In this document: in pieces, positions 40,527-54,217 of the stretch
Layout of the letters: each line of letters starts with the position of its first letter
How positions within the stretch are numbered: position 1 is the stretch's first letter
Assembly: GCA_024244705.1 (NCBI GenBank)
Contig: JAAEOK010000064.1
Coordinates: 62,001 to 126,000 of the forward strand
From: Alphaproteobacteria bacterium
GTDB lineage: Bacteria > Pseudomonadota > Alphaproteobacteria > JAAEOK01
Direction: 5' to 3'
Length of the DNA: 64,000 bases
The notes under the pieces: model-generated
What the model saw: the letters and a program-made list of their open reading frames with translations, nothing else
The model's database searches: none
What the model was told of the DNA's origin: nothing
Translations under genes and position numbers: made by a program

Positions 40527-41225
40527 GTGGCCAAAAACAACACAGAAAACTTGGACGGCATCAAGCTGCTGGCAAATTTGCCCCAAGTCACCCGCGACAA
40601 GCTCACCAAGCAATGCACTTGGCGCCGCTTCGCCGCGCACGAACAGATTATCGACCGTGACAGCGATTCGCGTGACATCTATTTCGTCACCAAGGGGCGG
40701 GTCCGGGTGGTGAATTTCTCCCTCTCGGGCCGCGAGGTCAGTTTCGATGATCTCGATGCCGGCGGTTTTTTCGGCGAATTGTCGGCGGTCGACGGACAAC
40801 CGCGATCGGCCTCGGTCGTGGCCCTGTCGGACACCGTCGTGGCGGCGCTTTCACCCAATGTTTTCAAGCAGATACTGAAAGACAATCCGGACGTGTCGCT
40901 GGCCATCGTGGAGCGGCTGGCCGAGGTAATTCGGCAAGCGACGGACCGAATCATGGACCTTAGCACCCTGGGCGCGCATAACCGGGTCCACGCCGAATTG
41001 CTCCGTTTGTCGCGCCATGGCAAGCACGACGACAACAAGGCCGTGATCGATCCGGCGCCGATTCATGCCGATATCGCCAGCCGGGTCAGCACAACCCGCG
41101 AAACGGTCGCCCGCGTGCTTGGCGATCTTTCCCGTAATGGCTTGGTATCACGAGAGAAAAGCGCACTCATCGTGCATGACGTCGAGCGCCTGGAAAGCCT
41201 GGTCGAGCATTTCAAACACGAATGA
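40527..41225 (+). CDS. CRP-like transcriptional regulator
   Basis: A 232-residue CRP/FNR-family protein. The cyclic-nucleotide domain has FFGELSAVDGQPRSASVVA, keeping the Glu, Arg and Ser that hold cAMP's ribose-phosphate in CRP. The helix-turn-helix has TTRETVARVLGDL, close to CRP's RETVGR recognition helix, predicting a TGTGA-N6-TCACA site. Only one Cys is present, so it is not an FNR-type Fe-S sensor. GTG start at 40527 follows GGAAG. A matching CRP box and a candidate small RNA lie just downstream. Confidence 0.85.
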   Translation: MAKNNTENLDGIKLLANLPQVTRDKLTKQCTWRRFAAHEQIIDRDSDSRDIYFVTKGRVRVVNFSLSGREVSFDDLDAGGFFGELSAVDGQPRSASVVALSDTVVAALSPNVFKQILKDNPDVSLAIVERLAEVIRQATDRIMDLSTLGAHNRVHAELLRLSRHGKHDDNKAVIDPAPIHADIASRVSTTRETVARVLGDLSRNGLVSREKSALIVHDVERLESLVEHFKHE

Positions 41226-41299
41226 TGTGAACGCGGCGACGATTTTTGCCACAAAATTGCCTAATAGTCTGGCATAATAGAGGACGATATCATGTGAAA

Positions 41300-41315
41300 T
41301 GTGATATCAATCACT
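41300..41315. promoter_or_regulatory. CRP-type binding site
   Basis: TGTGATATCAATCACT: a TGTGA-N6-TCACx palindrome with nine of ten consensus half-site bases, 75 bases after the CRP-like gene. Its centre (41307.5) is 41.5 bases upstream of the start site expected from a TATATA -10 box at 41337-41342, the usual class II activator position. A 7-bp inverted repeat, AGGTTCG/CGAACCT (41319-41337), lies between box and -10. Another TGTGA half-site is at 41293. Confidence 0.65.
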
Positions 41316-41348
41316 TTAAGGTTCGGCGTGCGAACCTATATAAGTGAT

Positions 41349-41495
41349 ATGTCGGCTCATCCCCTTGGCCGACATAGACGGGGTTACGGCTTCTCCCCTG
41401 GTCGGACCCCGTGCCAGGAAGGCTCCTTCGTCCCCTTGGGAGCCTCCCCTCCAAACGCAGGGACTTGGGGCCGGGCATTGCCCGGCCCCTTTTTT
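41349..41495 (+). ncRNA. Candidate small RNA with C-rich loops
   Basis: About 147 nt between a predicted promoter and a strong terminator, with no plausible reading frame. Three hairpins are predicted: GTCGGC (41351-41356)/GCCGAC (41368-41373); ACGGGGT (41378-41384)/ACCCCGT (41406-41412); AGGCTCC (41420-41426)/GGAGCCT (41439-41445). The loops carry ATCCCCTTG, CTCCCCTGG and GTCCCCTTG, repeated C-rich motifs able to pair with Shine-Dalgarno sequences. It does not look like 6S, 4.5S or tmRNA. The CRP box upstream suggests cAMP-CRP control. Start site and function are inferences. Confidence 0.6.
41467..41495 (+). terminator. Rho-independent terminator of the candidate small RNA
   Basis: GGGGCCGGGC (41467-41476) pairs with the following CCCGGCCCC across an ATTG loop and is followed by six T. 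This is a strong intrinsic terminator on the plus strand, and one of only two seen in the window. Confidence 0.85.
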
Positions 41496-41523
41496 CGTCC
41501 GCCCCGGTCGAAGCTTCGATACT

Positions 41524-41583: not shown

Positions 41584-42108
41584 ATGTCCAACGGATTGAG
41601 CCAAATCTCCGTCGCCTTCGTCACCGCCGAAGACCGCATACTGTTTCGCTTCAGTACGCGCGATGACAAAGTCTATCAATTCCACTTGACGCGACGGTTC
41701 GTGTTGCAGGGGATGTGGCCGGCGATCGAAAAATTGTTGATGACCAATCCCGAGGTGCGAAAGGTCGAGGACGAGGAGCACAAAAAGGCAATGATGTCGT
41801 TCCAGCACGAAGGCATGGTCGACGAGAAGTCGTTCACCAAAGAATTCCATGTCGAGGGTAAAGAGTCGCCGTTGGGTGACGAACCGGTTCTCGTGACGGG
41901 CCTTGAGGCGACGCGCAAAGATGACGACCTGTTTGTCCTCAAGTTCAAATTCCGCAAACGCGGCGAGGCGACACTGCGGCTCGACAACCGCTTGATGCAC
42001 AATGTCTGCAAATTGCTGATCGATGCCGTCGAGTCGGCGGACTGGGACGCCAAGATCGGCTTTGCCGATGCGGTCCTGGAATCGGCGCCCGAACAGCGGG
42101 TGCACTGA
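41584..42108 (+). CDS. Hypothetical protein
   Basis: A 174-residue soluble protein, not recognised. It is mixed alpha/beta, rich in charged residues, with no signal peptide or membrane segment; notable stretches are DRILFRFSTRDDKVYQFHLT and DDLFVLKFKFRKRGEATL. The frame is open to 41344, but the upstream part covers the candidate small RNA and reads as low-complexity, so the ATG at 41584 is chosen. It follows the small RNA terminator and is convergent with metZ. Confidence 0.7.
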   Translation: MSNGLSQISVAFVTAEDRILFRFSTRDDKVYQFHLTRRFVLQGMWPAIEKLLMTNPEVRKVEDEEHKKAMMSFQHEGMVDEKSFTKEFHVEGKESPLGDEPVLVTGLEATRKDDDLFVLKFKFRKRGEATLRLDNRLMHNVCKLLIDAVESADWDAKIGFADAVLESAPEQRVH

Positions 42109-52465: not shown

Positions 52466-54217
52466 ATGATCCGTCGCCTGGCGGCGATACTTGCGGCCGA
52501 CGTCGTCGGCTACAGCCGTCTCGTCGGTGCCGACGAGGAGGGCACGCTGGCGCGCTTCAAGGCGCTTCGCGAAGAGCTGATCGACCCCGCGATCGCCCGC
52601 CACGACGGGCGAATCGTCAAGACCATGGGCGACGGCGTCCTCGTCGAGTTTCCCAGCGTGGTCGACGCGGTCCGCAACGCGGTCGAGGTCCAGCGGGCGG
52701 TCACCGTCCGCGAGGCGGACATGCCCGAGGACCGACGCATCGCCTTTCGCGTCGGCATCAACCTGGGCGATATCGTCATCGACGGCGACGATATTCTGGG
52801 CGACGGGGTGAACGTCGCCGCCCGTCTCGAAGGGCTGGCCGAGCCCGGGGGCATCTGCATATCCGCCGCGGTCTTCGAACAGATCAAGGGCAAAGCCGAG
52901 ATCGACTGCGAGGACCAGGGCGAACAGCGCCTCAAGAACATCGCCGAGCCGGTCCGTGTCTTTCGCATCATTCTCGACAGCGGCCCGACAGCCGCCAAGG
53001 CGGCAAAAGCAAATGCGCCGGATACCGATTCGCGCAGCAAACCCTCGATCGCCGTGCTGCCATTCGACAACATGAGCGACGATCCGGAACAGGCGTTCCT
53101 CGCCGACGGGCTGGCTGAAGACATCATCACAGCGCTCTCCAAGCTGTCGGAGCTGTTCGTAATCGCCCGCAATTCGTCCTTCGCCTACAAGGGCCAGTCA
53201 CCCGATATCCGTCAGGTCGCCGAGGAGCTCGGCGTCCAAACCGTGCTCGAGGGCAGCGTCCGTAAGGCCGGCAACCGGCTGCGCATCACGGCCCAGCTGA
53301 TCGAGGCGGCGACCGGCCACCACCTGTGGGCCGAGCGCTACGACCGCGACCTGGCCGATATCTTCGACCTCCAGGACGAGATCACCGGCGAGGTCGTCAC
53401 CGCGTTGCAGGTGCAGCTCACTGAAGGCGAACAGGTGGCGATCCGACGGCGGCAGACGAAGAACATGGCCGCCTGGGAGTCATATTCCCGCGGCCTGAAC
53501 CTGCTCCGGCGTTTCAACCGGCAGGACAACGCGCGGGCGCGGGACTTGCTCGAACGCGCCGTCGAACTCGATCCGGATTTCGCCGTCGCCTGGAGCCTTC
53601 TCGGCTGGTCGCACTACAACGACGTGCGGTTCGGCTGGACCAAGGAGGCCGACGTCCTCGAGACAGCCGACGTATTCGCCAAGCGCAGCCTGTCCCTCGA
53701 CGACGCGCAACCTGACGCCCATGCGGTGGTCGGCCTGATCGCCCTGATCAGGCGGCAATTCGAGGAGGCGCTGTCATACGGCGAGCGGGCGGTCGAACTG
53801 GGCCCCAATATTGCCGATTGCTATACGACGCTGGCGATGACGCTGGTCTATTGCGGGCGGCCGGAAGAAGCGCTCGGTCGGATCGAACAGGCGATGCGGC
53901 TGTCGCCGTTCTATTCCGGCTGGTATCTCGGTATCGCCGGCCTGGTGTACCGGGCGCTGGGGCGGTTCGACGAGGCCATCGCCGGCGAGAAGGAGCGGAT
54001 GCGGCGCAACCCCGACAACATCTTTTCCGATTTCAGGCTCGCCGCTATTTACGAGGAGACCGGCCGCAACGACGAGGCCCGCGCCCACGTCGCCCAGGCG
54101 CTGCTCAAACATCCCCACCTGACGCTCCGGCAGATCCGCATCTCGGAGGTCTACCGCGACGATGCCCAGCTCGACGCCTATCTCGACCTGCTCCGTTCCG
54201 CCGGGATGCCTGAATAG
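52466..54217 (+). CDS. Class III adenylate/guanylate cyclase with TolB-like and TPR regions
   Basis: A 583-residue cytosolic protein. Residues ~1-175 are a class III cyclase domain: ILAADVVGYSRL (metal Asp12), KTMGDGVLVEF (Lys52, metal Asp56) and NVAARLEGL (transition-state Asn/Arg), so it should be active. Residues ~195-310 (SIAVLPFDNMSDDPEQAF ... HLWAERYDRDL) resemble the TolB N-terminal/FlgO-like domain, and the remainder is tetratricopeptide repeats. It would make cAMP on a signal sensed by the C-terminus. A CRP-like regulator is also in the window. GGAAGGGGG precedes the ATG. Confidence 0.88.
   Translation: MIRRLAAILAADVVGYSRLVGADEEGTLARFKALREELIDPAIARHDGRIVKTMGDGVLVEFPSVVDAVRNAVEVQRAVTVREADMPEDRRIAFRVGINLGDIVIDGDDILGDGVNVAARLEGLAEPGGICISAAVFEQIKGKAEIDCEDQGEQRLKNIAEPVRVFRIILDSGPTAAKAAKANAPDTDSRSKPSIAVLPFDNMSDDPEQAFLADGLAEDIITALSKLSELFVIARNSSFAYKGQSPDIRQVAEELGVQTVLEGSVRKAGNRLRITAQLIEAATGHHLWAERYDRDLADIFDLQDEITGEVVTALQVQLTEGEQVAIRRRQTKNMAAWESYSRGLNLLRRFNRQDNARARDLLERAVELDPDFAVAWSLLGWSHYNDVRFGWTKEADVLETADVFAKRSLSLDDAQPDAHAVVGLIALIRRQFEEALSYGERAVELGPNIADCYTTLAMTLVYCGRPEEALGRIEQAMRLSPFYSGWYLGIAGLVYRALGRFDEAIAGEKERMRRNPDNIFSDFRLAAIYEETGRNDEARAHVAQALLKHPHLTLRQIRISEVYRDDAQLDAYLDLLRSAGMPE

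Follow-up and report, generated by a model that had tools for sequence, protein, structure and literature searches.

Does a CRP-like regulator of an alphaproteobacterium control a small RNA encoded directly behind its own gene? Control of small RNAs by CRP is familiar from gammaproteobacteria, where examples include the CRP-repressed Spot 42 and AzuCR, the latter of dual function. No report of a CRP-controlled sRNA in alphaproteobacteria was found in the open-access full texts searched. The question is raised by a stretch of 64,000 nucleotides (hereafter the window) on contig C64 of a 4.5 Mb genome (G000), in which an earlier note had described a compact unit of a CRP-like regulator and a CRP-regulated sRNA. 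Positions given below are those of the window, and the features of the unit all lie on its + strand.

The regulator gene (40527..41225) begins with GTG and encodes 232 amino acids, in which the Pfam domains cNMP_binding (71 bits) and HTH_Crp_2 (50 bits) are both found above cut-off. Against the NCBIfam CRP equivalog NF008732 the protein scores 90.5 bits, where the cut-off is 266; judged by these family scores, it is a relative of, and not the same as, enterobacterial CRP. In an alignment with solved CRP chains it retains the GEL...RSA phosphate-binding cassette (G, E, R and S) and the recognition helix RETV.R, in agreement with the CRP-like RETVAR helix noted earlier. In the C-helix, the T127-S128 pair of E. 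coli CRP reads A-T, and because of this pair the ligand might be cAMP or cGMP alike. Class III nucleotide cyclase domains number about 30 in the genome; such a domain lies in the window at 52484-52939 (+), 11 kb from crp, in a 637-aa open frame (40.6 bits).

Behind the gene lies a predicted CRP box, TGTGATATCAATCACT (41300..41315), and exactly 21 nt 3' of it a -10-like hexamer, TATATA (41337..41342), which lacks the final T of TATAAT. The hexamer places the inferred +1 at 41349 and the centre of the box at -41.5, just where the earlier note had put it. Class II CRP promoters have this geometry, with the box centred at -41.5 and 21 nt between its 16 bp and the -10 hexamer; in the window this predicted promoter has an imperfect hexamer, and in relatives its spacing is kept. 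The box is the sole match to TGTGAN6TCACW with at most one mismatch within the 64-kb window, where about 2.6 one-mismatch boxes are expected from the composition, and since this count is not above chance the weight of the box argument rests on the relatives. A generic sigma-70 scan of the window did not list the candidate promoter, as would be expected of a promoter without a -35 element.

A genome scan for TGTGAN6TCAC followed at class II spacing by TANNNT likewise missed the site, owing to the final A of its hexamer. That scan found one other site (L045; G000:C1:9494-9536), which lies outside the window and is the genome's only exact site of the class II type. It precedes a metallo-beta-lactamase-like ORF, and about 1.8 kb further on there is a class III cyclase domain (C1:11334-11780). 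By analogy with CgrA-gcyBC, the CRP-like protein could possibly exert feedback on nucleotide synthesis there. Within the window, an inverted repeat, GATATCA-N9-TGATATC (41286-41308), overlaps the left part of the CRP box and is possibly a second operator, or else a chance repeat. Control of the box by FNR was considered, as GTGAT..ATCAC in the window is one base per half off the half-site of FNR, and was set aside on the grounds that most relatives have GTGAC..GTCAC and that the recognition helix is of the CRP type.

From the predicted start, a candidate small RNA of 147 nt (41349..41495) would extend to an intrinsic terminator (41467..41495) made up of 10 GC pairs (41467-41489) followed by U6. 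The computed fold (MFE -77.8; z -4.3 to -4.6 against shuffles) bears out the earlier description of some 147 nt with three hairpins and a strong terminator. The 5' hairpin 1 (41349..41375) exposes UCCCCU (41360-41365) in its loop; hairpin 2 (41378..41412) has the loop UCUCCCCU, with UCCCCU at 41394-41399; and hairpin 3 (41420..41445), with GGCUCC/GGAGCC as its stem and UCCCCU again in the loop (41431-41436), marks the beginning of a 3' module conserved in relatives. There follows a conserved, anti-Shine-Dalgarno-like GCCUCCCCUCCAAACGC stretch (41442..41459), recognized by comparison with relatives, whose CCUCC is partly paired in the window fold. UCCCCU occurs four times in the RNA, three times in hairpin loops, a count matched by none of 500 shuffles; compared with relatives, this multiplication of loops is largely confined to the window RNA.

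A search for known RNA families, as the earlier note had proposed, gave no gathering-level Rfam match within the window. Several sub-threshold Rfam hits (ar7, BjrC80, SorY, anti-hemB and sX13) were rejected as memberships and are read as shared anti-SD loops plus a terminator; among them, ar7 (RF02342) aligns end to end at 34.9 bits against a gathering score of 60. The idea of equating ar7 with EcpR1 was dropped in view of the different loop motif in the EcpR1 paper (PMC4414408). Next downstream of the terminator, at 41584-42108 (+), is a conserved-looking protein of 174 aa, for which Pfam and NCBIfam gave no match.

When 58 related genomes were searched at the DNA level, the element turned up nowhere beyond its own genome, and relatives were therefore reached through the CRP protein: its homologues were gathered from 385 genomes of the class, and from further ones, and the DNA behind each was read. 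Nineteen of the 30 closer orthologues, drawn from about ten families, show a TGTGA-N6-TCACT-like box at short distance behind crp. The box is mostly absent behind the more distant ones, and it is absent also downstream of the paralogue (L003, 46%). With a uniform, looser one-mismatch scan the box was found at 20 of 30 closer and 5 of 42 distant homologues (Fisher p 2.5e-6, indicative only, as the rows are related, a sample of the class and not independent). Boxes upstream of the gene are rare in the closer group (3/30, one of them explained by a contig end). On a tree of the CRP proteins the box carriers fall in one half only (19/41 vs 0/31), a clustering equalled in none of 500 label shuffles, and about 8 changes are needed to account for gain and loss of the box.

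The spacing within the promoter is also kept: TANNNT is found exactly 21 nt after the box at 11 of 21 loci, and at no more than one locus for any other distance from 0 to 59, with L016, L030, L031, L035 and L037 having a weak hexamer or none at 21 nt. Moreover, local RNA stability across 19 loci peaks at the promoter-predicted start, where a stable 5' hairpin is found, and this peak is independent support for a start site that is inferred in every genome. Both observations bear on whether the crp 3' UTR with its terminator might account for the RNA, either as a processing product or as the plain 3' end of the crp mRNA, with the box contributing little. The predicted start follows the crp stop by only some 120 nt, and as the scan places no terminator on the + strand in this interval, transcription of crp could continue as far as 41495; but base-exact spacing from box to -10 in relatives, and a structure peak that coincides with the start predicted by the promoter, make this origin distinctly unlikely. 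The notion that the element serves the next gene (from about 41584) as attenuator or leader draws on the conserved-looking ORF on the same strand, but is extremely improbable: a strong terminator precedes that ORF by about 90 nt, nothing points to an antiterminator, and downstream content differs between relatives. The variation in what follows the element is readily visible, as in family f105, where tRNA genes take that place. The compact regulator-plus-sRNA unit of the earlier note is supported by the comparison: behind crp in distant families there recur the box, its 21-nt spacing, a 5' hairpin where transcription is predicted to begin, and the terminator-bearing 3' module.

The 3' module, shared by the RNA-only and the RNA-plus-ORF forms described below, consists of a hairpin whose last bases are GAGCC, followed by CUCCUCUCCAAACGC and by terminators of the ACUCGGGCCGG type; hairpin, CCUCC/UCUCC stretch and terminator are conserved across the RNA forms. 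Its representative in the window (41424..41503) resembles the alphaR8 (suhB/MmgR) family, with 29.3 bits against RF00519, where the cut-off is 41, and the other crp-adjacent loci score 24.8-29.3 bits by the same model and cut-off. Genome-wide the window ranks third, after the canonical alphaR8 of this genome (L086, 47.7 bits), which lies beside an ORF reading as N-formylglutamate amidohydrolase, and a locus at 31.4 bits. The latter (L087; G000:C88:12958-13037) is an alphaR8-like module, also below the cut-off, behind the ORF of a LysR-type regulator. The single-stranded alphaR8 10-mer UUUCCUCCCU does not occur in the window, which has CCUCCCCUCC instead, partly paired.

The relation was also found from the opposite direction. 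A search with model R1, built from nine crp-adjacent modules only and run against the 385 genomes of the class, gave 56-81 bits on those modules, and among the next-tier loci 14 of 20 tested proved to be alphaR8 above the Rfam cut-off. On these scores the 3' module is akin to alphaR8 but falls short of formal inclusion in RF00519, and common descent of the two is likely, the alternative being convergence. Four second-tier R1 matches (L100, L103, L107 and L116) lie among tRNA genes in family f5 and are not alphaR8 by Rfam. Hairpins 1 and 2 of the window RNA have no close homologues, because the window genome stands alone in its order among the genomes compared.

The predicted transcripts behind the common promoter take three forms. 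RNA-only loci are the window, L020, L024, L038, L023, L033, L030, L031 (whose sequence runs off its contig) and L035; RNA accompanied by a short ORF is found at L015, L044, L016, L022, L027 and L032; and an ORF in which the 3' module is not evident is found at L018, L037 and L040. L039 could not be assigned to any of the three, and within one family, f114, both the RNA-only and the RNA-plus-ORF forms occur. The ORFs, previously unannotated, are present at eight sampled loci (L015, L016, L018, L022, L027, L032, L037 and L040) and at L044, which makes nine and comes from another genome of the same genus as L015. They encode 29-32 residues with one strongly hydrophobic, one-helix stretch. Pfam and NCBIfam searches of the relatives' peptides returned no family above cut-off, and confident matches to the PSELWIG-type peptide adjoin crp only. 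Between L015 and L044 the ORF differs with pS 0.36 and pN 0.04, which indicates that it is under protein-level selection in this pair. The window transcript has no short ORF and so does not itself qualify as dual-function, that is, coding plus base-pairing.

A promoter serving mainly a small membrane peptide would account for the recurrence of the hydrophobic 29-32 codon ORF after the same promoter at the eight sampled loci and L044, for the low pN of the L015/L044 pair, and for the one family with the ORF in which the alphaR8-like module is not evident; the ORF of the window would then have decayed, and its RNA would be a leftover leader and terminator of no regulatory function. Such a history is unlikely, as RNA-only forms with the same 3' module exist in several families and fold with unusual stability (z -2.6 to -7.6), and the UCCCCU loops of the window are highly non-random, unlike the products of decay. 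The earlier idea is extended by the kinship of the 3' module with alphaR8 and by the short ORF that several relatives carry in the predicted transcript. Comparison supports a conserved, crp-adjacent small transcript with a putative class II CRP promoter, an anti-SD module of alphaR8-like type and a micro-ORF that may be present or absent. More tentatively, and with somewhat less than even confidence, it may be proposed that the ancestor was an alphaproteobacterial crp-linked, CRP-activated dual-function transcript, combining a membrane peptide of about 30 aa with an alphaR8-derived anti-SD module, from which some lineages became RNA-only (the window among them, with multiplied UCCCCU loops) and others peptide-only.

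For the window, the element is probably an anti-Shine-Dalgarno sRNA of alphaR8-like type, activated by CRP and encoded next to the gene of that activator. It would be transcribed from a class II promoter, a geometry that predicts activation by the CRP-like protein. As cyclic nucleotide rises, the CRP-like protein would bind the -41.5 box and recruit RNA polymerase to the -10 of the promoter behind its own gene. A stand-alone RNA of about 147 nt would be made, ending at the intrinsic terminator; it would expose its UCCCCU loops, and the RNAs of relatives would also present a CCUCC/UCUCC stretch in unpaired form. With Hfq, whose gene (hfq) is present in the genome, the RNA most likely would pair with the Shine-Dalgarno regions of several mRNAs, its presumed targets, and so repress their translation, the mode of action of the alphaR8 sRNAs SisA and MmgR and, by analogy, of VcdR and CyaR. 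The C-rich loops might instead act as a sponge, pairing with a G-rich sRNA rather than mainly with mRNAs. In Caulobacter, alphaR8 sRNAs are paired with, and are the targets of, such a sponge, CrfA (PMC12559287), and their 3' module is shared here; since this module is better documented as acting by repression of mRNAs, a sponge is very unlikely.

A CRP-activated, anti-SD sRNA finds parallels in several known systems. CgrA of Rhodospirillum centenum is, like the regulator here, an alphaproteobacterial CRP homologue; it binds TGTGA-N6-TCACA, the same kind of site as the window box, and differs in being cGMP-responsive and in that no adjacent sRNA appears in the part of its description available (PMC4681086). 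CyaR of enterobacteria is cited as a CRP-activated sRNA (PMC8672173). Like CyaR, the window RNA would be CRP-activated and is expected to act at ribosome binding sites, in line with the comparison to CRP-controlled sRNAs of enterobacteria in the earlier note. Rfam detects no sequence relation between the two, and the window RNA differs too in its place immediately after the gene of the regulator. In Vibrio cholerae, VcdRP is a CRP-repressed dual-function RNA that encodes 29 aa, and its VcdR uses four consecutive C (PMC8672173). With Spot 42 and AzuCR it shares the character of a CRP-controlled small transcript, and its 29 aa are comparable to the ORF form of the relatives; all three are CRP-repressed and gammaproteobacterial, whereas the geometry in the window predicts activation and the window form has no ORF. 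A regulator with its own adjacent riboregulator, which distant families retain as RNA-only, RNA-plus-peptide or peptide-only forms, lets one study directly how coding and non-coding outputs come to substitute for one another behind a single promoter.

A close likeness is to alphaR8 (RF00519, suhB/mmgR), represented by MmgR of Sinorhizobium meliloti and SisA-D of Caulobacter, with which the window RNA has in common a hairpin, a CU-rich anti-SD stretch and a GC-rich terminator. SisA represses through an anti-SD 10-mer, and the Caulobacter alphaR8 sRNAs take part in the control of carbon starvation (PMC12559287). The window RNA differs in its score (29.3 vs 41), in having no exact UUUCCUCCCU and in its two extra 5' hairpins, as well as in its predicted class II CRP promoter beside crp, where the canonical L086 lies beside the amidohydrolase-like ORF. 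Through the crp-adjacent unit, these widespread sRNAs would be tied to cyclic-nucleotide signalling.
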